Source: Prevotella melaninogenica
GTDB lineage: Bacteria > Bacteroidota > Bacteroidia > Bacteroidales > Bacteroidaceae
Reading direction: 5' to 3'
Length of the DNA: 64,000 nucleotides
Assembly: GCF_018127925.1 (NCBI RefSeq)
Contig: NZ_CP072348.1
Span: forward strand, 379,501-443,500
Within the stretch, counting starts at the first letter, position 1. The number at the start of each line of letters is the position of its first letter. The position numbers and the translations under genes were made by a program. Below, piece after piece: positions 17,237-58,258 of this stretch. The notes under the pieces were generated by a model that searched no databases, was not told the origin of the DNA, and saw only the letters and a program-made list of their open reading frames with translations.

Positions 17237-18259
17237 ATGAAAAAAGAAAATATACGTATTGTTTTCATGGGTACTCCAGAGTTTGCTGTGGAGTCGTTGA
17301 AAGCATTAGTTGAGAATGGATATAATGTTGTAGCTGTAGTCACACAGCCTGATAAACCTGTTGGGCGTCATCAAGAACAGCTGCAGCCATCACCTGTGAA
17401 ACTCTATGCACTTGAACATAACTTGCCTGTTTTGCAGCCTGTAAAGATGAAGGATGCTGATTTTATAGAAGAATTGCGTTCTTATAAAGCTGATATGCAG
17501 GTGGTTGTTGCCTTTCGTATGTTGCCGGAGATAGTTTGGAGTATGCCTCGCTTAGGTACGTTTAATGTACATGCAGCCTTGCTTCCGCAGTACCGTGGTG
17601 CTGCTCCTATCAACTGGGCGGTTATCAATGGTGAGACCGAGACAGGTGTGACGACCTTCTTCCTTGATAAAGACATTGATACTGGTTGTATTATCCTTCA
17701 AAAGCCGTTTGCTATTCCTGATACAGCTGATGTTGAGTATGTCTATGATGGCTTGATGGTTTTGGGCGCAAAGATTGCCATGGAAACAATTGATCTCATT
17801 GCATCTAAATTGCCTGAAGATAGTCTGGATACCGTTGATTTCTCTGCAGTTCTTGATGGCATAAGTGCTCCTCAAGTGTGTGAAGATGCTGAATTACATC
17901 ATGCACCGAAGATATTTAAGGAGACATGCGAAATCAATTGGAACCAGTCTGCTAAGAAAGTTTATGATTTTGTGCGTGGACTCAGTCCTTATCCTGGCAC
18001 TTGGAGTACACTCTGTTCTATTGAAGACAATGAGGTAAAGCCTTTGATTATGAAGGTTTATAAGACGGCTAAGTCAGACCGCGCATCTATAGGTACCCCT
18101 GGTACGCTCGTCGTAGAAAAGACTCGTCTCTATGTCAATACGTCTGATAACCTCTTGGAGCTTCTCGATATTCAGTTGACAGGTAAGAAACGAATGGATG
18201 TTCGCTCATTCTTAAATGGGTTTAAGGATATAGAGAAGTACCTTTTCCAGACAGAATGA
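17237..18259 (+). CDS. fmt: Methionyl-tRNA formyltransferase
   Basis: Formylates the initiator Met-tRNA using 10-formyl-tetrahydrofolate. The catalytic domain shows RIVFMGTPEFAVESL at the start, the folate signature FNVHAALLPQYRGAAPINWA with the catalytic Asn and His near residue 107, and the DKDIDTG segment carrying the catalytic Asp near 142. The C-terminal domain includes FVRGLSPYPGTW. 340 residues, slightly above the E. coli length. The TGA stop lies inside the first copy of a 20-bp tandem repeat (18251-18300), so the last codons are part of that repeat. Confidence 0.94.
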   Translation: MKKENIRIVFMGTPEFAVESLKALVENGYNVVAVVTQPDKPVGRHQEQLQPSPVKLYALEHNLPVLQPVKMKDADFIEELRSYKADMQVVVAFRMLPEIVWSMPRLGTFNVHAALLPQYRGAAPINWAVINGETETGVTTFFLDKDIDTGCIILQKPFAIPDTADVEYVYDGLMVLGAKIAMETIDLIASKLPEDSLDTVDFSAVLDGISAPQVCEDAELHHAPKIFKETCEINWNQSAKKVYDFVRGLSPYPGTWSTLCSIEDNEVKPLIMKVYKTAKSDRASIGTPGTLVVEKTRLYVNTSDNLLELLDIQLTGKKRMDVRSFLNGFKDIEKYLFQTE

Positions 18260-18300
18260 CGATAGTTTAGACAGAATGACGATAGTTTAGACAGAATGAC
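18251..18300 (+). repeat. 20-bp tandem repeat, 2.5 copies, over the fmt stop
   Basis: acagaatgacgatagtttag occurs at 18251-18270 and 18271-18290, then a half copy at 18291-18300. The first copy contains the fmt TGA; the last half copy is the left arm of the next hairpin. Confidence 0.9.
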
Positions 18301-18382
18301 ATAAAGACATATTCCTTTAATGACATATTTAAACCAAACAACAAAATGTGTTACTAAGGAAATATGTCTTTATGTCATTCTG
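18292..18382. terminator. Long hairpin between convergent fmt and PagL-like gene
   Basis: The first 22 bases (18292-18313) are perfectly complementary to 18361-18382, with further imperfect pairing inward. It probably ends transcription in both directions, although the sequence also belongs to a dispersed repeat family (see 25759 and 27541). Confidence 0.7.
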
Positions 18383-18389
18383 GCTTGTT

Positions 18390-45327: not shown

Positions 45328-46437
45328 ATGAGAATATTACAGGTAATAACATCCTTATCTATGGGTGGGGCTGAAATGTTGGTGGTTAATTTGATACCAA
45401 GGTTGCAGGCTTTTGGGAATACTGTGGATTTATGTATCTTTAATGGAAAAGAAACACCATTGACCCATAGATTGAAGAAAGAGAGTCCACAGACAAAGAT
45501 ATATGCGTTAGGACATGGGGTTTATAATCCGCTCTATATATTAAAGCTAATAAAGATAATGAGGAATTATGACATTGTTCATACTCATAATTCATCACCA
45601 CAACTATTTGTAGCTATTGCTAACTTATTTTGTTCTCAGAAGTTGGTCTCTACAGAGCATACAACCTCTAATCGCAAACGTGAATGGAAATGGTATGCAC
45701 CTATTGAGAGTTGGATGTATGGGCAATATAATCATGTGATTTGTATAAGTCAGATTGCTGAAGATAAATTGCGAGAGTATATGGGAGGAGTTTGGTTAGA
45801 TAAAACAAATCCCCAATATAAGCAAATCTCAACGATTAATAATGGTGTAGATGTTAAGGCTATTAGTGATGCAACTCCTGATAATGCCTTGTTGTCATTA
45901 AAGGAACAAAGAAAGGCGATCTTGATGGTAGCTGGATTTCGAGATGCGAAAGATCAGGATACGGTTGTTAAAGCCTTAGGATTACTTGATAACAGTCACT
46001 TTGAGGTTTGGTTTGCTGGTGTTGGTATACGTCAAGAAATTGTTAAGCAGTTAGCAGAGTCACTTGGTGTTAGTGACCGAGTTAGATTTTTAGGCTTACG
46101 TACTGATATTCCAAATGTTCTGAGAGCAGCGGATGTTATCGTAATGTCTTCTCATTGGGAAGGATTGAGTCTTAGTAACGTAGAGGGGATGAGTGCACAT
46201 AAGCCATTTATAGCCTCTGATGTAAATGGTTTGAAAGAGGTTACTAAGGGATATGGTTTACTTTTCCCACATGAGGATGCAAAGGCATTGGCTGAAGAAT
46301 TTAATCGTTTAGCAAGTGATGAAGCTTATTATAATGAGATTGCTGAACGCTGTTACAATAGAGCTTTAGAGTTTGACATCTCAAAAACGGTAAATGGGTA
46401 TAATAATGTTTATAATGGTGTAATTTCTAATGGGTAA
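45328..46437 (+). CDS. Glycosyltransferase family 4 (GT-B)
   Basis: The start is ATG 45328 (MRILQVITSLSMGGAEMLVV); a TTG one codon earlier is possible. 369 residues with the GT4 N-terminal GGAE motif, HTHNSSPQLF near residue 90, and the donor-binding segment MSSHWEGLSLSNVEGMSAHK near 275 (E-x7-E). It probably adds one sugar to the repeat unit. Its 3' end overlaps the start of the next acyltransferase by 8 bases. Confidence 0.87.
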   Translation: MRILQVITSLSMGGAEMLVVNLIPRLQAFGNTVDLCIFNGKETPLTHRLKKESPQTKIYALGHGVYNPLYILKLIKIMRNYDIVHTHNSSPQLFVAIANLFCSQKLVSTEHTTSNRKREWKWYAPIESWMYGQYNHVICISQIAEDKLREYMGGVWLDKTNPQYKQISTINNGVDVKAISDATPDNALLSLKEQRKAILMVAGFRDAKDQDTVVKALGLLDNSHFEVWFAGVGIRQEIVKQLAESLGVSDRVRFLGLRTDIPNVLRAADVIVMSSHWEGLSLSNVEGMSAHKPFIASDVNGLKEVTKGYGLLFPHEDAKALAEEFNRLASDEAYYNEIAERCYNRALEFDISKTVNGYNNVYNGVISNG

Positions 46438-47401
46438 AGATAGAATAGAATATTTAGATTTTGTAAAGTTCGTAGCAATACTCCTTGTATGTGTTGGGCA
46501 TTGTTATGTAATGACACCAAACTTAGATAGCATTGTCCGACCAATCATCTATTCTTTTCACATGCCTTTGTTTATGTTGGTGTGTGGTTATTTTTCTACT
46601 CGTAGCTTAGAAATACCAATTAAATTCCTTTTAGAAAAGAAGAGTAGGTAATTGTTATTTCCTGTTATATCGTGTACTATTATGACTGTTTGTCTATTCG
46701 AGAGGGGGATTCGTATGGAAATTATTGGGTGTGTTTGGTTTCTTAAGAATCTGTTTATATGCTATCTTATAGCAAGATTTGTCAAATACATTAAAATACC
46801 AGTAGAGATAACGCTTCCGCTTTCATGGGTAATACTTTTAATTATTCCTTATGGTGGAACTTTGATGATTAATTTTCTCTATTTTTATTTTTGTATTGGT
46901 TATTTAATCCATAAGCATCTTGATTATCTACAAACTTATAAAGTCCCTTTATTCAGTATTTCACTTGCCTTTTTTATCGTTGCTCTTTATCTGAATTGGA
47001 CAAATCCTCCTGAAAAAGTTGATATAAATTTACTTCTGTATAGCCCTTTTAAATTTATATTACAAGTTTTTGTAGGACTTTCCGGCTCTATAGTCATAAT
47101 AGGTATCTGTGAATTGATATATAAGTTGTTTGAAAAGCGGCAGAGGGCAAAGAGGATTCTATCATATTTTAGTACTATTGGTAGACATACTTTAGGAATA
47201 TATGTCATACAAACTTTTATAATAGAGCGGTTAATAACTGTATATATTAAGTTAAATGAGGCAGTCATTTCACCAGTTTTTACAGATTTTATATTTATTC
47301 CATTGATTGGTAGTGTCTTATGTCTTGTTTGCTATTATGTTGTTCGTTTAACACAACCAATTAAAATAATAAATATTCTTTTTTATGGAGAACAGAAATA
47401 G
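46430..47401 (+). pseudogene. Membrane acyltransferase (family 3) with a nonsense codon
   Basis: The N-terminal part (RIEYLDFVKFVAILLVCVGH, then SFHMPLFMLVCGYF) ends at TAA 46649-46651 after LLEKKSR. The same frame continues to 47401 with the rest of the membrane domain (LLFPVISCTIMTVCLFERG onward; GRHTLGIYVIQTFI near the end). One CAA to TAA change explains the break. The full length would be 323 residues. The final stop TAG spans the left boundary of the following IS5-family element: TA from the gene, G from the element. Confidence 0.85.
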
Positions 47402-48234
47402 AACTTATCTTGACTTTTGTTTCTTTTCACTTTCTTCATCAGAATAACAATAAATGCTATATAATTCCATGCTTGCCAACTGGTCAAAGTAACATCAAAT
47501 CTGTTCAACAGACTTCTGTATGAATCCAACCACGCATTTGTTCTTTCTATGCTGTACCTTTCTTTATACAGTATATCGTCAAACAAATAGCAATCTTGCC
47601 CACCCCCTGCTCTATAATTAAATGCTACATTTGCAAACACACCCATTCTTAGGCACATGTGTCTAAACTCTTTTGCATCGAATCCCGCATCAGCATTGAG
47701 AAATAATCCATCAGTAGAAATATCAGACTTTGTGAGTTGTGAGAATACTTCTTTAACCACTTCTGAAATATTGTACAAATCATTGTGAGAACCTGCAACT
47801 GGAGTGGATATGGCGAGTGGTATTCCCTGACGGTCAGTTACATAAATAGCATTTGTAGTCTTGCTCTTCTTGCGTCCCTGATAGCTCTGACAATCTCCAC
47901 CACGTAATGCTGTAGTATGGCTGCCATCCAAATCTATACTTGACATATCCAAGAAAGATTTATAACGGCCTAGAAGTATTGTCCACACTTTTTGCCATTC
48001 TCCTTTCTTACACCATTTGCGAAAATGTCCGTATACGGTTTTGTAATGAAGAACCTTTGCTGTGAAGAACGATGAAACTGGAAGCATATACCATTGGCAA
48101 CCAGTCTTAAGCTTATAAAGAATGCATTGAATTACCTCGGATAGGCAGCTTTGGCAAATATATCCACGTTTTGCTACTGATAAATGAGGTAGAATTTCAT
48201 TTTTTATTGTATCTTTGTCCAGTACTTTGTACAT
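47383..48234 (-). CDS. IS5-family transposase
   Basis: A 283-residue transposase that looks intact. The N-terminal segment (ILPHLSVAKRGYICQSCLSE, LKTGCQWYMLPVSSF, YGHFRKWCKKGEWQKVW) is the DUF4096-like part; catalytic residues lie in SSIDLDGSHTTALRGG (Asp), LFLNADAGFDAKEF (Asp) and YSIERTNAWLDSYRSLLNRF (Glu), as in the IS427/IS1031 group. The reading frame runs past the IS boundary at 47401: the last six residues and the stop (complement of 47383-47385) are encoded by host DNA. Confidence 0.85.
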   Translation of the reverse strand: MYKVLDKDTIKNEILPHLSVAKRGYICQSCLSEVIQCILYKLKTGCQWYMLPVSSFFTAKVLHYKTVYGHFRKWCKKGEWQKVWTILLGRYKSFLDMSSIDLDGSHTTALRGGDCQSYQGRKKSKTTNAIYVTDRQGIPLAISTPVAGSHNDLYNISEVVKEVFSQLTKSDISTDGLFLNADAGFDAKEFRHMCLRMGVFANVAFNYRAGGGQDCYLFDDILYKERYSIERTNAWLDSYRSLLNRFDVTLTSWQAWNYIAFIVILMKKVKRNKSQDKFYFCSP

Positions 48235-49438: not shown

Positions 49439-50551
49439 ATGAAGAAGAAATTAATTCGCGTTACAACTGCAGACATATCTTTAAATAGTTTGCTGAAAGG
49501 TCAGCTGAAGTTCTTGAGCCAATATTTTGACGTTATTGGTGTTGCAAAAGATACAGGTGTTCTGAAGGAAGTTAGTGAACGAGAGGGTATTCGTGTTGTG
49601 GATGCTCCGTTAGAACGTCCTATCAGTTTGGTGAAAGATATAAAGGGGTTGTGGTTTTTGTATCGTCTGTTCTGTAAGGAGAAACCATGGTGTGTACATG
49701 CCAATACTCCTAAGGGAAGTCTTTTGGCAATGATAGCTGCATGGTTTGCATGCGTTCCGCATAGAGTTTATACCGTCACTGGCTTACGTTATCAGGGGGC
49801 TCATGGCTTTTTAAAAATGATTCTTAAGACGATGGAGCGCTTGTCGTGTCTTTTTGCTACAAATGTTATTCCAGAAGGACAAGGGGTATTACATGCTTTG
49901 CAAGAGGATTGCATTACTAAGAAGCCGTTGTGTGTGATTTGGAATGGAAATATTAATGGTATTGATACCGAGTTCTTCACTCCTGTAGAGAATACTCAAG
50001 AAAAGTCTGATTCTTTTACCTTCGTTTTTATAGGAAGAATGGTTAAGGATAAAGGAATGCACGAACTAACGGAGTGTATGCGACAACTGAATTGTCGGTT
50101 AATATTGGTTGGAACATTTGAAGAGGAGGATGCCGTTTCTGCTTCTGATAAAGAGTTTTTGACAACTTCTGAAAAGGTTAAGTTTGTCGGCTGGCAAAGT
50201 GATGTTCGTCCTTTCTTAGCTCAAGCTGATGCACTTGTTTTCCCAAGTTATCGTGAGGGATTCCCAAATGTTCCAATGCAAGCAGGTGCTATGGGCTTAC
50301 CATGTATTGTTACGAATATTAATGGTTGCAATGAAATCATTAAAGATGGACTGAATGGTAAAATTATTGCTGCCCCTCTTAAAGAAGGGTCTGAAGTTAT
50401 GCAACAGGCTTTGCTTAATACTATGAAATGGTTTATTGAGCATCCTGAAGAGGCTAAACGTATGGGACGTAATGCTCGTCCAATGATACGTGAAAGGTAT
50501 GAGCAGAAGGATATTTGGAAGGCTTTAAAAGAATTTTACGATGCTTTATAA
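49439..50551 (+). CDS. Glycosyltransferase family 4 (GT-B)
   Basis: A 370-residue enzyme: KKLIRVTTADISLNSLLKGQ at the start, VHANTPKGSLLAMIAAW and YTVTGLRYQG in the N-terminal domain, then FIGRMVKDKGMHELTECM near residue 197 and PSYREGFPNVPMQAGAMGLP near 275. It resembles PglA/WcaL-type transferases that act right after the initiating sugar. This fits its place two genes before the initiating transferase and its overlap (11 bases) with the GNAT acetyltransferase gene. Confidence 0.85.
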   Translation: MKKKLIRVTTADISLNSLLKGQLKFLSQYFDVIGVAKDTGVLKEVSEREGIRVVDAPLERPISLVKDIKGLWFLYRLFCKEKPWCVHANTPKGSLLAMIAAWFACVPHRVYTVTGLRYQGAHGFLKMILKTMERLSCLFATNVIPEGQGVLHALQEDCITKKPLCVIWNGNINGIDTEFFTPVENTQEKSDSFTFVFIGRMVKDKGMHELTECMRQLNCRLILVGTFEEEDAVSASDKEFLTTSEKVKFVGWQSDVRPFLAQADALVFPSYREGFPNVPMQAGAMGLPCIVTNINGCNEIIKDGLNGKIIAAPLKEGSEVMQQALLNTMKWFIEHPEEAKRMGRNARPMIRERYEQKDIWKALKEFYDAL

Positions 50552-51176
50552 AATAGCACATATCCTACGTGACAAGTTACCTTGGATCTGGGATATTATA
50601 GGGGTTATCAATTCCTTCCTTTTTGGATTAAGGTATGGAAGTAAAATGAAGAATGTTCAGAATATTCTTTCTCATTTTACTAAAACTACAGATGAGGCTG
50701 GTAATGCACTTTTCTATAGGATAGAGAGCCTTGGTAAGGATAATCTTCCTATGTTGGCAAAGATGTTTGCAGAACAGCCTGCGTCAGCCTTTGATTTCTT
50801 TAAACCTCATGGTTTCGATGAACTATCATTGAACAAGTTAGCAAAAGATAAAAGTTTTCTTGCTTATATCGTTGTTGCAGAAGGAACTGTTCAACAAAAA
50901 GTATGTGTTGGATACTTCTTCCAGCGGAGTTTCTTTTGGGGGAAATCCTTTCGTGGGTATATGACGGATTATCGTTGGCAACGTCGTGGTATCAATAAAA
51001 TGATGAATCTATGTGCAACAGAGATTTCTTCATTGTTAGGTCTTAGGGTTTTTGGAACAATCGCGCCAGATAATATTGCTTCTATGAAATCTGCTCAGAC
51101 TGCTAATGATATTCAGATTATTGAAACATTACCTAATGGAGATTACTATGTAGAGTATAAACCAAAGGCAAAATGA
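50541..51176 (+). CDS. GNAT-type N-acetyltransferase
   Basis: A 211-residue protein whose central and C-terminal part fits a GNAT fold: AYIVVAEGTVQQKVCVGYFF, RGYMTDYRWQRRGINKMMNL (acetyl-CoA loop) and RVFGTIAPDNIASMKSAQ. N-terminal about 40 residues are partly hydrophobic. Situated in the pair with the GT4 gene (11-base overlap) and before the initiating transferase and an aminotransferase, it could acetylate a 4-amino sugar (the PglD role) or modify another residue. The substrate is inferred from context only. Confidence 0.65.
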   Translation: MLYKIAHILRDKLPWIWDIIGVINSFLFGLRYGSKMKNVQNILSHFTKTTDEAGNALFYRIESLGKDNLPMLAKMFAEQPASAFDFFKPHGFDELSLNKLAKDKSFLAYIVVAEGTVQQKVCVGYFFQRSFFWGKSFRGYMTDYRWQRRGINKMMNLCATEISSLLGLRVFGTIAPDNIASMKSAQTANDIQIIETLPNGDYYVEYKPKAK

Positions 51177-51180
51177 ACCA

Positions 51181-51463
51181 CGAATTTCTCAAATGTTTTT
51201 GTGTACTACGAATTTCTCTAATTTTGCGAATGTTCTTTGTGTACTGCGAATTTCTTTAATTCCTCGAATGTTCTTTATGGACTGCGAATTTCTCTAATTC
51301 TTCGAATGTTCTTTGTGTACTGCGAATTTTTTTAATTCCTCGAATGTTCTTTATGGACTGCGAATTTCTCTAATTCTTCGAATGTTCTTTGTGGACTGCG
51401 AATTTCTCTAATACCTCGAATGTTCTTTATGGACTGCGAATTTCTCTAATTTCACAAATATAG
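51181..51463 (+). repeat. 38-bp tandem array upstream of GxxExxY gene
   Basis: Six full 38-bp units at 51209, 51247, 51285, 51323, 51361 and 51399 (ending 51436), preceded by a 28-base partial unit (51181-51208) and followed by a degenerate partial (51437-51463). Each unit starts cgaatttctctaatt and has a second half cgaatgttctttatggactg. Units differ by a few substitutions only. Confidence 0.95.
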
Positions 51464-51480
51464 CAAAGCTCTTTCATATT

Positions 51481-51873
51481 ATGCGCGTTGAGAAGGAATT
51501 GGTGTTTAAGAATGAGGCATACCAAATAATTGGTGCTGCAATGGCTGTTCATAATGAGTTGGGTAGTGGGATGCGTGAGGTAGTCTATGGTGATTCTCTT
51601 GAGATAGAATTTAAATTGAGAGGAATTCCTTTTCAACGTGAACAGACGTTCAATATTCTTTATAAGGGTGTAGAGTTACAGCATAAGTTCAAATGTGACT
51701 TTATTTGTTATAAGAATATAATTGTTGAACTTAAAGCTGAAAAAGCGATTACGGATATTGATCGCTCGCAGATTATTAACTATGTGAAGATAACAAAATG
51801 CCCCTTGGGTATACTTGTCAATTTTGGTGAGAGTTCTTTAATGTACGAACGTTATGTCTGTACGAAAGATTAG
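51481..51873 (+). CDS. GxxExxY protein (PDDEXK_3-like nuclease fold)
   Basis: A 130-residue protein. The defining G-x-x-E-x-x-Y motif is GMREVVY (residues 30-36) within MAVHNELGSGMREVVYGDSL. A PDDEXK-like core follows: HKFKCDFICYKNIIVELKAE, giving Asp, then Glu-x-Lys, then ITDIDRSQIINYVKI. This family is widespread in Bacteroidetes and other phyla and has no proven function; the nuclease fold is a family-level assignment. It is unrelated to polysaccharide synthesis and is flanked by two tandem arrays, suggesting that gene and arrays arrived or move as a unit. Confidence 0.85.
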   Translation: MRVEKELVFKNEAYQIIGAAMAVHNELGSGMREVVYGDSLEIEFKLRGIPFQREQTFNILYKGVELQHKFKCDFICYKNIIVELKAEKAITDIDRSQIINYVKITKCPLGILVNFGESSLMYERYVCTKD

Positions 51874-51929
51874 TTTTATTCGTCTTATTTATTATATATA
51901 TAATTAGCCTCATTTTTTCTATCCGTATT

Positions 51930-52089
51930 GTTTTTTATTCGCGTCATTCGTAGTATTCGATAAATTCTAATGAGAGCATCTTTATATTCTATAATTCGTG
52001 CCATTTGTGTCATTCGTAGTTTTAATAGATATGTCTTTATATTCTAAAATTCGTGTTATTTGTGTCATTCGTAGTATTTTAACTCATTT
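51930..52089 (+). repeat. 55-bp tandem array downstream of GxxExxY gene
   Basis: Two good units (51979-52033 and 52034-52089), both with tctttatattct then aattcgtg, atttgtgtcattcgtag; a degenerate one lies at about 51930-51978 (attcgcgtcattcgtagta). Read on the minus strand the unit core is cgaatgacacaaatggcacg, similar to the cgaatg...tggactgcgaatt core of the upstream array. Confidence 0.9.
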
Positions 52090-52096
52090 ATAAGTT

Positions 52097-52732
52097 ATGT
52101 TTTTAAAATGGATATTTGATAAACTCGCATCTTTGTTTGGTTTGCTATTTCTTAGTCCTGTATTATTGGTAGTAGCAATTCTAATCAAGGTGAAGATGCC
52201 TGGTCCTATTTTGTTTTGTCAGAAGCGAGTGGGGCAGTATGGCAAACTGTTTATTGTATATAAGTTCAGATCGATGACAGTCAAGGCAGAGGCTTCTGTG
52301 GCAAGTAGGGATTCAGAAGCAACTTCTATTGCTTCAACTGAACAGTGCCGCATCACACCACTTGGCGAGAAACTTAGACGTTATAAGTTAGATGAGTTAC
52401 CAGAACTCTGGAATGTTCTCAAAGGTGATATGAGTTTTGTCGGTCCACGTCCAGACGTTCCTGGTTATGCAGATCAGTTGCAAGGAGAAGAAAGAGATAT
52501 TTTGAAGTTAAAACCTGGAATAACGGGTCCAGCCAGCTTGAAATATAGAAATGAGGAAGAACTCTTAGCTTCTGTTGAGAATCCTGCTCAATATAATGAT
52601 GAGGTTATTTTCCCTGATAAAGTCAAGTTAAACCTCTATTATTTAAAGAACTATTCCTTTATAAAAGATATTCAAATGATTGTCTGTACAGTTCTCGGTA
52701 AAAAGATGGACTATGCAGGTGAAAAAATATAA
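52097..52732 (+). CDS. Initiating phosphoglycosyl transferase (PglC/WcaJ type)
   Basis: A 211-residue monotopic sugar-1-phosphate transferase: N-terminal membrane-entering helix (FDKLASLFGLLFLSPVLLVV), CQKRVGQYGKLFIVYKFRSM near residue 43, the catalytic Asp-Glu in RYKLDELPELWNVLKGDMSF near 98, then GPRPDVPGYADQL and KPGITGPASL. It starts glycan assembly by moving a sugar phosphate, often a di-N-acetyl or N-acetyl hexosamine, from UDP-sugar to undecaprenyl phosphate. Short form lacking the multi-helix N-terminal region. The aminotransferase follows after 8 bases; the 55-bp array ends 7 bases before. Confidence 0.92.
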   Translation: MFLKWIFDKLASLFGLLFLSPVLLVVAILIKVKMPGPILFCQKRVGQYGKLFIVYKFRSMTVKAEASVASRDSEATSIASTEQCRITPLGEKLRRYKLDELPELWNVLKGDMSFVGPRPDVPGYADQLQGEERDILKLKPGITGPASLKYRNEEELLASVENPAQYNDEVIFPDKVKLNLYYLKNYSFIKDIQMIVCTVLGKKMDYAGEKI

Positions 52733-52740
52733 TTAGTAAA

Positions 52741-54102
52741 ATGGAAAGAAATCGTGTTTTACTTTGTCTCGCTCACATGAGTGGTAACGAGATGAGATAC
52801 ATCCAAGAGGCGTTTGACACCAATTGGGTGGTGCCATTGGGACCAAATGTCAATGGTTTTGAAGATGACTTGAGACGTTTCTCTGTCTCTGTAAGTCCTT
52901 CAGGTGAAAGAAGAAACTTCCTTGAAAAAGAGGAATATCCACAGACAATTATGGCGCATGAGGATAATCCTGATAATCTTTGGAAGGAGTCTTTACCAAG
53001 ATTGGAGGATAAGCGTATTGTAGCACTCTGTTCTGGTACCTCTGCTGTACACCTCGCTTTAGTTGCATTGGGAGTTAAGGCAGGCGATGAGGTCATCTGC
53101 CAGAGTTTTACCTTCTGTGCCAGTTCACATCCAGTAACTTACCTTGGTGCAACCCCTGTGTTTGTTGACTCAGAGAAGGAAACATGGAATCTTGATCCTA
53201 CACTTTTGGAGGAAGCTATTAAGGATAGAATTGCTAAGACTGGTAAGAAACCAAAAGTAATCATCGTTGTTTATCTTTATGGTATGCCTGCAAAGATAAA
53301 AGAAATTCTTGCAGTAGCAGATAAATATGATATCCCTGTTGTAGAGGATGCTGCAGAGGGTTTAGGTTCAAGATACGAAGGACAGGTATGTGGTACCTTT
53401 GGCGAGTATGGTGTTCTCTCATTTAATGGAAACAAGATGATTACTACATCAGGTGGTGGTGCACTTGTTTGTCCTAATGAAGAGGCTCGTAATAATGTGA
53501 TGTTCTATGCAACACAGGCTCGTGAGGGTTATCCGTACTATCAGCATGAGAAGATAGGTTTCAACTATCGTATGAGTAATGTTTGTGCTGGTATCGGTCG
53601 TGGTCAGATGACAGTCTTGGATGAGCATATTGCTCATCACCGTTACATTGCTCATTTGTATGAAGAGGCTTTCAGTAAGATAGATGGTATTACCTTCCAT
53701 GCAAACCCTTCATCGGAGTTCGATTCTAATTTCTGGTTGAATACAATGGTTCTTGACCCTTCTGTTAAGGTGAAAGGTCAGGAGAATGCATATAAGACAA
53801 CAGTACAAGGAGCAGTAGGTGGTGCAGCTGGTGTTATTCATTCAGTAGATAATGCACATACTGATTGTGAACCAAATGCTAATGTTGAGGCTATGCGTGT
53901 CTTCCTTGATAAAGCCAATATTGAGAGCCGTCCTCTTTGGAAGCCAATGCACAAGCAGCCATGTTATAAGGATTGTCCAGCATACGTAAATGGAGTGAGC
54001 GAAAGTCTTTTCAAAGTAGGTATGTGTTTACCAAGTGGACCATTAGTAACAGATGATGATGTGAAATATATTGTGGAGAAGATAAAAGAGGCAATGGAAT
54101 AA
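52741..54102 (+). CDS. DegT/DnrJ/EryC1/StrS aminotransferase (PglE-like)
   Basis: A 453-residue PLP-dependent enzyme, longer than the usual 370-400. Core motifs: ALCSGTSAVHLALVALGVKAGD near residue 96, VVEDAAEGLGSRYEG near 200 (Asp contacts PLP) and LSFNGNKMITTSGGGALV with the Schiff-base Lys near 228. Two extra segments account for the length: about residues 47-92 and about 345-385 (NAYKTTVQGAVGGAAGVIHS region). It would aminate a 4-keto sugar nucleotide; with the adjacent acetyltransferase and initiating transferase this suggests a bacillosamine-like first sugar, but no 4,6-dehydratase gene is in the window. Confidence 0.88.
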   Translation: MERNRVLLCLAHMSGNEMRYIQEAFDTNWVVPLGPNVNGFEDDLRRFSVSVSPSGERRNFLEKEEYPQTIMAHEDNPDNLWKESLPRLEDKRIVALCSGTSAVHLALVALGVKAGDEVICQSFTFCASSHPVTYLGATPVFVDSEKETWNLDPTLLEEAIKDRIAKTGKKPKVIIVVYLYGMPAKIKEILAVADKYDIPVVEDAAEGLGSRYEGQVCGTFGEYGVLSFNGNKMITTSGGGALVCPNEEARNNVMFYATQAREGYPYYQHEKIGFNYRMSNVCAGIGRGQMTVLDEHIAHHRYIAHLYEEAFSKIDGITFHANPSSEFDSNFWLNTMVLDPSVKVKGQENAYKTTVQGAVGGAAGVIHSVDNAHTDCEPNANVEAMRVFLDKANIESRPLWKPMHKQPCYKDCPAYVNGVSESLFKVGMCLPSGPLVTDDDVKYIVEKIKEAME

Positions 54103-57004: not shown

Positions 57005-58258
57005 TTAGAAATCAGTCAGACAGGTATCCAATGCTTTGGTGATAGCCTCTTTGTCGAGGTCTTGCCCAATAAATACGAGTTTCTGCATTCTGTCACCATA
57101 TGGCTCCTCCCAATCTTTCTTCAGTTTAGGATTATTCTCAAGGAACTCGCGCAACTGGAATGGTGGCATAGTAGCATACCATTGACCTGCATTGCGAAGG
57201 CTTACCTGCTTACCAGCCTGCTCAAAGACATAACAAATATCCTTCTCATTAGAGAAATAGCAGAGCCCTTTACAACGAATAATCTGTTTAGGCCACTGAC
57301 GTGCTACGAAATCATCAAAGAAATTGATGTCGAATGGACGGCGTGCATAGTAAACAAAGGTCTGGATATTATATTCCAAAGCTTCACCGCTTTCCTCATT
57401 CTCCAAACTGTGATGATGGTGGCAGTGGTGATGATGATGATCGTGATGGTGTTCGTCATGCTCATCGTGGTGGTGTTCATGCTCATCATGGTCGTGATGA
57501 TGGTCATGTTCATCCTCTTCCTCATCGTGACCTTCAATCTCTGCAATCCATGAAGCAGAGGTAGCAACCTTTTCAAAGTTGAAGTCTCCTGTATTGAGGA
57601 TTTTATCTAAGTCAACATCTCCATAATTACACTCGATAATCTCAGCCTTTGGTTGAAGTGAACGGATAATCTTCTTCACCAGTCCTAATTCCTCTTTGCT
57701 GACGTCATCCACCTTATTAAGAAGGATAATATTGCAGAACTCAATCTGCTGGATAAGTAAGTTCTCAATGTCATCCTCTTGCAAGTCTTTCTTCAAAAGG
57801 TCGTTACCAGCAGAGAACTCATCACACATACGACGTGCATCGACAACAGTCACGATAGAATCAAGTACTGCCTTACCTTTCTTAGCAAGGTCTGGATACA
57901 TTTGTGGATATGCGCAGATAGTCTGTGCGATAGGGGCAGGCTCGCAGATACCACTTGCCTCGATAACAATATAGTCGAACTTTTGCTGTGAAACAATATC
58001 GTTCAATTGCTGCACTAAGTCCATCTTCAGCGTACAACAGATACAACCATTTTGGAGTGCAACGAGCGAATCATCCTTCTGATCGACAACGCCACCTGCC
58101 TCAATGAGGTCAGCATCAATATTCACTTCACCGATGTCGTTGACAATAACGGCAAACTTAATACCTTTCTTGTTGGCAAGAATCTTGTTTACTAACGTTG
58201 TCTTACCGCTGCCTAAATAACCTGTAAGCAGGAGGACAGGAGTCTCTTTTATATTCAT
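57005..58258 (-). CDS. CobW/COG0523 GTPase metallochaperone with His-rich segment
   Basis: A 417-residue G3E-family P-loop GTPase. Walker A is LLTGYLGSGKTTL (residues 10-22), the metal-binding CxCC motif is NGCICCTL (70-77), IEASGICEPAPI follows near 103, and NKVD near 177. Between about 243 and 290 lies a striking His/Asp/Glu-rich stretch with more than 25 His, a likely zinc (or other metal) store. The CobW C-terminal domain (FVYYARRPFDINFFDDFVAR) follows. Such proteins deliver Zn, Co or Fe to client enzymes; the metal is not provable. No Zur-like operator was recognised. Confidence 0.87.
   Translation of the reverse strand: MNIKETPVLLLTGYLGSGKTTLVNKILANKKGIKFAVIVNDIGEVNIDADLIEAGGVVDQKDDSLVALQNGCICCTLKMDLVQQLNDIVSQQKFDYIVIEASGICEPAPIAQTICAYPQMYPDLAKKGKAVLDSIVTVVDARRMCDEFSAGNDLLKKDLQEDDIENLLIQQIEFCNIILLNKVDDVSKEELGLVKKIIRSLQPKAEIIECNYGDVDLDKILNTGDFNFEKVATSASWIAEIEGHDEEEDEHDHHHDHDEHEHHHDEHDEHHHDHHHHHCHHHHSLENEESGEALEYNIQTFVYYARRPFDINFFDDFVARQWPKQIIRCKGLCYFSNEKDICYVFEQAGKQVSLRNAGQWYATMPPFQLREFLENNPKLKKDWEEPYGDRMQKLVFIGQDLDKEAITKALDTCLTDF

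Follow-up and report, generated by a model that had tools for sequence, protein, structure and literature searches.

The GxxExxY nuclease gene of Prevotella melaninogenica described here lies between two arrays of short degenerate words that mirror each other, and the same ends are dispersed in the genome without the gene. We consider this cassette to be, rather probably, a member of a family of mobile units in which the nuclease recognizes its own words, cuts, and drives movement. The broader proposition, to which we give about an even chance, is that GxxExxY units constitute a widespread and undescribed class of transposable elements, in which a single Cas4-like nuclease propagates palindromes of words and enzyme and words diverge together. 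The window, that is, the whole stretch of 64,000 nucleotides that was analyzed, corresponds to positions 379,501 to 443,500 of NZ_CP072348.1 (assembly GCF_018127925.1; referred to below as the source genome), and all positions are given relative to the window. An earlier note on this stretch had proposed that the gene and its arrays form a mobile or self-maintaining unit, perhaps of a homing-like kind. The unit is supported by the present analysis, while homing in the classical sense is not.

The cassette in the window

The nuclease-fold gene (51481 to 51873, plus strand; PF13366/TIGR04256) is indeed enclosed by two arrays, as had been proposed. The left end of the cassette (51177 to 51465, plus strand) consists of the left arm ACCACGAATTTCTC..., with the unit CTGCGAATTTCTCTAATTCCTCGAATGTTCTTTGTGGA in about seven tandem copies. 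The right end (51937 to 52075, minus strand) carries three copies of the right arm, ATTCGTG..ATTTGTG..ATTCGTAGT, the words of which are the reverse complement of the left-arm words. The refined limits of the cassette are 51177 to 52075, and its first position directly follows the stop codon of the preceding gene. Tandem Repeats Finder reported the upstream array as 7.1 copies of 38 bp (51183 to 51451; 87% matches), in agreement with the earlier description, and also with a higher-order period of 76 bp (3.6 copies; 93% matches). The downstream array was absent from the list of this program at a minimum score of 40, and its three cores (51937 to 51954, 51994 to 52020, and 52049 to 52075) were read from the sequence. 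The inverted relation that the earlier note saw between the arrays holds in that both are repeated arms of one palindrome of 68 to 70 bp, which is dispersed in the source genome. Its comparison with terminal inverted repeats is apt, with the modification that each end is a set of 9- to 10-bp words and that tandem duplication of the ends gave the arrays.

The cassette is inserted between two genes of the same strand. The downstream gene (52097 to 52732, plus strand) encodes a bacterial sugar (initiating) transferase, as previously assigned (PF02397; E = 3.1e-56). The upstream gene (50541 to 51176, plus strand), named acetyltransferase in the earlier note, gave no Pfam or NCBIfam match at E = 1e-3. 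In Bacteroides fragilis, CTCTGTGTTCTCTGTGG is part of a published primer near the initiating transferase gene BF2782 (PMC3090145). On the strength of this primer sequence only, a CTCTGTGTTCTCTGTGG word array would lie near or upstream of that gene, as in the window (PMC3090145). Elsewhere in the window, the polysaccharide region contains an IS5-family transposase gene (47383 to 48234, minus strand). Two adjoining open frames at 46430 to 47401 share one reading frame with a single stop codon between them and may represent one interrupted membrane protein gene. Short tandem repeats at 57432 to 57507 encode a histidine-rich loop of a GTPase-like protein (57005 to 58258, minus strand; function guessed from sequence).

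The 130-residue product of the cassette gene belongs to the GxxExxY family, with profile matches above the curated cutoffs for both PF13366 (PDDEXK_3; E = 1.5e-35; 122.5 bits versus a cutoff of 22) and TIGR04256 (GxxExxY; E = 1.3e-39; 135.1 bits versus a cutoff of 35). Its PD-(D/E)XK site is complete (E33, D73, E83-x-K85, and Q97xxxY101). The order E, D, ExK, QxxxY is that of RecB/Cas4-type nucleases, and GxxExxY would accordingly be classed, by its motifs, as a minimal PD-(D/E)XK nuclease of this type. Residues V23, G30, E33, Y36, D73, E83, K85, Q97, Y101, N114, and F115 were invariant in an alignment of 31 proteins. Among 194 distinct relatives, E33 and D73 were kept in 194, K85 and Q97 in 193, and E83 and Y101 in 192, and at least one of E33, D73, E83, K85, and Q97 was missing from L079, L246, L253, and L298 in the 194-protein alignment. 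A sequence-profile search of solved structures returned nothing significant, the top two matches being to T7 endonuclease I (E = 0.11 and 0.16).

PF13366 matches were found in 37 of the 60 genomes searched, including the source genome. A role as a defense gene was rejected on the basis that the window protein had no PADLOC match at 0.01. Likewise, a role as plasmid or phage cargo was set aside: among 72,556 plasmid records, only 8 matched the window protein at E = 1e-5, as did 2 of the 50,697 phage records, PHROGs gave no match at 0.01, and viral contigs contained no relative of the window protein.

Inverted ends at other GxxExxY loci

A total of 221 GxxExxY loci were collected from three sources: the source genome and 60 relatives, genome contigs matched by one Bacteroidales-type protein (of 230 loci, 80 were retained), and additional copies from 36 genomes of the second source. 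These loci comprised 194 distinct proteins, of which 184 had usable flanks. At each locus, the 250 bp upstream of the gene was compared by local alignment with the reverse complement of the 250 bp downstream, which yielded an inverted score. Scores of at least 15 were obtained for 123 of 184 own pairs. In the controls, such scores were reached by 3 of 109 pairs after displacement by 500 bp and by none of 184 shuffled pairs. The median score was 17 for own pairs versus 8.5 for crossed pairs. The own partner ranked among the top 5% of all pairings at 137 of 184 loci and was the best of all at 81, which agrees with the earlier proposal that gene and arrays behave as a unit. The possibility that most GxxExxY genes lack such arrays, raised at the same time, does not apply to this sample, most members of which have matching inverted flanks. 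The window flanks themselves had an inverted-match score of 13. Scores below 12 were found at 40 of the 184 loci, 6 of which had a strong direct repeat instead. In two sets of loci whose flanks were read (31 and 39 loci), the arms mostly start close to the gene and leave no room for a second enzyme gene.

The inverted-flank layout spans many phyla, and the window represents one case of a wider pattern. Among the usable named loci of the second source, 44 of 74 scored at least 15. With phylum groups assigned from record titles, and in a sample drawn by similarity to one protein and not at random across phyla, this score was reached by 7/7 loci of Cloacimonadota, 5/5 proteobacteria-like loci, 4/5 of Calditrichota/Ignavibacteria/Chlorobi, 12/17 of Bacteroidota, 4/6 of Acidobacteriota, 4/6 of Verrucomicrobiota/Lentisphaerae, 4/8 of Chloroflexota, 3/8 of Spirochaetota, 1/4 of Planctomycetota, 0/3 of WOR-3/Stahlbacteria, and 0/5 loci without a phylum group.

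Dispersed copies without the gene

The window-type word pattern ATTCGTGNNATTYGTGNNATTCGTAG, with up to 3 mismatches, matched 39 places in the source genome, while its reversed control matched none. Contig C1 held 36 of these matches and contig C2 held 3, two of them inside the cassette; the cassette itself sits on C2, the larger contig, despite this distribution. At least 16 distinct, complete, gene-less palindromes of 68 to 70 bp with the arms of the window cassette (referred to as minis) were present at unrelated places in the source genome. They were drawn from 30 returned loci, and a scan of 19 further loci of this genome added none. The minis have the form ACTACGAAT...ATTCG(T/C)AGT, with G replacing the first A in one of the 16. 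Their ends are sharp, as the arms are 87% identical in pairwise comparison while the identity of the flanks falls from 37% (0 to 10 bp) to 26% (30 to 40 bp). No enrichment of target duplications of 2 to 10 bp was detected in the 16 minis, and their ends are therefore placed solely by the loss of homology. Window-type minis end in ACTACG/CGTAGT, which, by letters alone, contains GTAG, the type of tag that stands beside the hairpin in REP elements. Five minis folded as single-stranded DNA gave z scores of -4.0, -6.3, -2.0, -4.4, and -7.6 relative to shuffles. Three DNA queries for the empty site of a dispersed mini returned none in clean form.

The 15-mer CGAATTTCTCTAATT, which is repeated in the left array of the window, was found in 18 of 384 fetched loci, with carriers comprising the window cassette, minis of the source genome, single places in both G003 and G026, and the G034 cassette. 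A gene-less element without assigned strand is also located within the window (18249 to 18384) and carries the words of L002, another GxxExxY locus of the source genome, in the form AGACAGAATGACATAAAGACATAT...ATATGTCTTTATGTCATTCTG. The DNA around the minis (L143 to L172) contains other degenerate word families of similar period (TTTGAAC, GTCAACTCGT, and AATTCATAATT types), which may belong to further nuclease lineages.

Arrays without the gene, a case that the earlier note had held against its own reading, do occur, but compact minis are concentrated in genomes with a GxxExxY gene, with exceptions. Of the 60 genomes, 37 had a GxxExxY match, and 14 of these contained at least five window-type words; none of the other 23 did. 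Within the same genus, the corresponding numbers were 14 of 27 and none of 9. G003 and G026, which do not have the window cassette, had 2 and 1 window-type word matches, compared with 39 in the source genome. G026 has no GxxExxY match, yet 13 short matches to the L002-type mini region were found in it; in G003, which has that gene, they numbered 28.

The CACACRGAG pattern was detected in 6 of 60 genomes (G000, 79 matches; G057, 37; G022, 6; G028, 2; G034, 2; G041, 1). A subfamily 2 gene is present in four of these six genomes, that of G057 (L253) having a changed catalytic position. G034 showed no subfamily 2 gene, and the gene of G041 was below the IR threshold. The subfamily 2 genomes G037, G047, G048, G054, and G055 had no CACACRGAG match, and several of their genes have other words. 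In the source genome, inverted CACACGGAG arms with cores of 231 to 289 bp form a repeat family at 20 places (L353 to L372), and these arms are mostly nested in an element of about 370 bp with outer inverted repeats of the form GG(G/T)TCTTC...GGAGTGATAA. As most of the 20 fetched copies are located inside this larger element, the 79 matches in the source genome do not constitute independent support and were dropped as such. This copy number may reflect another mobilizer.

Occupied and empty sites

A lack of empty sites, which the earlier note had named as a refutation of its reading, does not apply, since cassette-free orthologous loci exist in G003 and G026. In G003, only about 60 bp separates the two flanking genes, which share 97.9% (627 bp) and 96.9% (652 bp) identity with those of the window, and the cassette is absent. 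The situation is similar in G026, with flanking genes that are 86.6% and 91.0% identical. The G003 spacer is unrelated to the window and unalignable, and the window junction is not clean. Relatives of the flanking genes abut in G016. In G099, about 290 bp of other DNA lies between them, and neither a GxxExxY gene nor any words were noted there. Because the cassette-free sites contain no words to cut, a homing endonuclease in the classical sense is not supported, and homing into an empty allele was rejected as the main reading. As the flanks in G003 are 97 to 98% identical and the other region compared is only 72 to 74% identical to the source genome, the polysaccharide locus of the window was probably exchanged between species recently.

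A second site, between what we take to be the 2-oxoacid:ferredoxin oxidoreductase alpha and beta genes, exists in empty, mini, and full-cassette form. A search of the 60 genomes returned 30 loci, which were read by eye. Full cassettes were present in 8; in G007, the 77-bp spacer contained one mini, whose words were ACGGACT, and G027 and G019 had words with no gene found. The spacer was 7 bp or less in 10 loci and 12 to 34 bp, without words, in 4 (G079, G060, G073, and G072), while 5 loci had another upstream context. The proteins of the 8 cassettes form one clade (support, 94/94), and descent and loss thus explain part of the presence and absence. The words at this site were ACGGATT (G025), CACGAATT (G031 and G034), CACAGATT (G028 and G032), AAAGATTT (G075), and ACGAATT (G001 and G065). 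On average, a left arm matched the right arm of its own locus better than that of another locus (mean score, 18.0 versus 10.8; permutation p = 4e-4), and in 4 of the 8 cassettes the row maximum was the own pair. At a fixed site, therefore, word differences on the two sides go together. In G033, two separate GxxExxY gene fragments lie beside a second oxidoreductase gene copy (C208, 2376 to 2641) and are possibly a decaying cassette; the first oxidoreductase copy in this genome has an empty 4-bp spacer.

A further site, at a gene that is presumably prfC, is held by two separate lineages, L010/L022 (support, 100/99) and L016, which speaks for movement. L016 and L332, located at other sites, form a group with the window protein; its support of 94/87 is just under the 95/80 mark of the tool, and this grouping speaks only moderately for movement.

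Relationship between words and nuclease subfamily

The arms are composed of degenerate words with a period of 9 to 10 bp, and the word varies between loci. Arm self-similarity was 0.386 at lag 9 and 0.362 at lag 10, compared with 0.274 and 0.245 in displaced sequence. Typical arm forms are CCACGAATTACACGAATTAACACGAATT, CCACAGAGAACACAGAG, and CAACGGATTTCACGGATTAAACGGATT, and the opposite flank carries the reverse complement. Loci with more similar proteins also had more similar words (Mantel r = 0.199, p = 0.002, 138 loci; r = -0.077 in the displaced control), and the proportion of pairs with a word cosine above 0.3 rose from 2% at 25 to 35% protein identity to 77% above 70%. Words in subfamily 2 were predominantly of the AG class (26 AG, 1 AT, 2 ties), while those in subfamily 4, which includes the window protein, were mostly of the AT class (55 AT, 16 AG, 17 ties). 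Subfamily 3 was mixed (9 AG, 6 AT, 3 ties), and subfamily 1 had 2 AT and 1 tie. The Fisher p value of 9e-12 for subfamily 2 versus subfamily 4 is descriptive, because the classes were defined post hoc, from the data themselves, and the loci include related, nonindependent ones.

Proposed mechanism and alternative explanations

The proposed unit would consist of one GxxExxY nuclease gene between two inverted ends, each with about three degenerate words (here of the CGAAT type) spaced 9 to 10 bp apart, a distance close to one helical turn. Gene-less versions of these ends would be short palindromes (68 to 70 bp here) that act as nonautonomous dispersed copies. We infer that the nuclease acts on the repeats and drives their movement. 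It would recognize its own word set in a folded hairpin or cruciform, a form that is probable in view of the palindromic copies and of a word period close to one helical turn. Cutting or trimming at the outer end, which here is ACTACG/CGTAGT, would be followed by joining of the ends at a new position, with host replication or repair assisting and no target duplication arising. Tandem amplification of the arms, together with words that change alike, suggests that cutting and repair also occur inside the arrays.

The same tandem growth of the window arms to about 7 and 3 copies, the 76-bp higher-order period, and the both-side word change among the 8 orthologous cassettes could also be produced by a drive that maintains the repeats where they are. 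The nuclease would then cut the arrays in place, and repair templated by other copies would enlarge and homogenize them, so that the words would change in concert, with insertion at new sites being rare and due to ordinary recombination. However, the dispersed minis have sharp ends and unrelated flanks, G007 holds a lone mini with other words at the oxidoreductase site, and two lineages hold the prfC site, and we regard maintenance in place as unlikely. A quite improbable alternative is that the repeats owe their movement to another enzyme, with the nuclease acting as cargo, as a regulator, or as a hairpin remover kept to limit them. The CACACRGAG pairs of the source genome, mostly inside the ~370-bp element with separate outer inverted repeats, speak for another enzyme, as do the L002-type repeats that G026 keeps without a detected GxxExxY gene. 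In contrast, the gene lies between matching ends at most of the 184 loci in many phyla, the word type follows the nuclease subfamily, and the arms mostly begin too near the gene to accommodate a second enzyme gene. A plain DDE element was rejected, as the unit contains no DDE gene and the 16 minis show no target duplication.

A role in RNA, in which the inverted ends pair around the gene transcript or the operon message and control stability or translation, appears very improbable. Such pairing needs no word that follows the nuclease subfamily, gene-less copies occur at unrelated places, and the cassette is present in some species and absent from others. A known RNA family was likewise discarded, as no Rfam match was obtained at the gathering threshold in 50500 to 52800. 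On the other hand, the five tested minis fold better than shuffles with DNA parameters (z of -2.0 to -7.6), and the window insertion lies between genes of the same strand.

The GxxExxY family, matched in 37 of the 60 genomes searched, is rarely named in the open-access literature, and the present analysis links it to a definite DNA partner. If the mobile-unit reading is correct, the cassette represents a new type of mobile element with an unexpected enzyme, one that would explain a class of degenerate repeats found across many phyla. Each lineage would carry its own readable specificity code, and with over a hundred matched nuclease-word pairs, recognition would be directly testable. The class could also be relevant to the question of how Cas4 acquired its role next to repeats. 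Finally, the both-side word change at orthologous genes would make concerted repeat evolution in bacteria measurable.

Comparison with known systems

Passages that mention the GxxExxY family (PMC8934634, PMC12085832, PMC9756366) describe no flanking repeats and assign it no tested function. No description of a nuclease-hairpin unit was found in a search of open-access papers, and an earlier mention may exist elsewhere.

GxxExxY proteins resemble Cas4/RecB in the order E, D, ExK, QxxxY. Pfam Cas_Cas4 matched 15 of 31 members at E values up to 1 (best, 0.0054), below the curated cutoffs, and PADLOC Cas4b matched 12 of 31 at E values up to 0.01 (best, 4.4e-5). The restriction-enzyme family HSDR_N_2 matched 2 of 31 members with an E value of 0.0014, which is lower than the best for Cas_Cas4. 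In contrast to Cas4, no invariant or nearly invariant cysteine, a feature of the Fe-S cluster, was present in the 31-row GxxExxY alignment, and the unit contains no cas genes. T7 endonuclease I, a Holliday junction nuclease, gave subthreshold matches to the catalytic part in 8 of 31 members at E values up to 1. However, it is a phage enzyme, and its best PDB match (E = 0.11) was not significant. We know of no tie between T7 endonuclease I and repeats.

The Rpn recombination-promoting nucleases (PF04754) have been described as a nuclease family linked to DNA mobilization (PMC5350276). They belong to a different Pfam family than GxxExxY. To our knowledge, Rpn nucleases have no flanking word arrays. 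The miniature elements (MITEs) of DDE insertion sequences are similar to the minis in that gene-less copies are bounded by the ends of the gene-bearing unit. They differ in that PF13366 was the sole family match inside the GxxExxY unit, which has no DDE transposase, and in that no target duplication was found in the 16 minis.

In REP/REPIN-RAYT "REPtrons" and TIRYT "TIRtrons," the gene is located between inverted copies of a palindrome, gene-less hairpins occur in extragenic DNA, and a genome can have several gene types, each with its own repeat group (PMC3116915, PMC3733652). Likewise, the cassette gene is flanked by inverted palindromes that are also dispersed without the gene. As for the minis, no target duplication is known for REP/RAYT elements. 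The GxxExxY unit differs from these systems in its enzyme, which is a PD-(D/E)XK nuclease (only PDDEXK_3 matched at E = 1e-3) and not an HUH tyrosine transposase; in its arms, which are series of degenerate 9- to 10-bp words that can be tandemly amplified; and in the variation of its words between orthologous loci, with both sides alike. The unit is thus REP/RAYT-like in its anatomy but is not a REP/RAYT element, as its sole enzyme is a Cas4-like nuclease and the HUH transposase is absent. Overall, the combination of a nuclease gene, mirror-image arrays, and gene-less hairpins looks like an undescribed type of mobile element.
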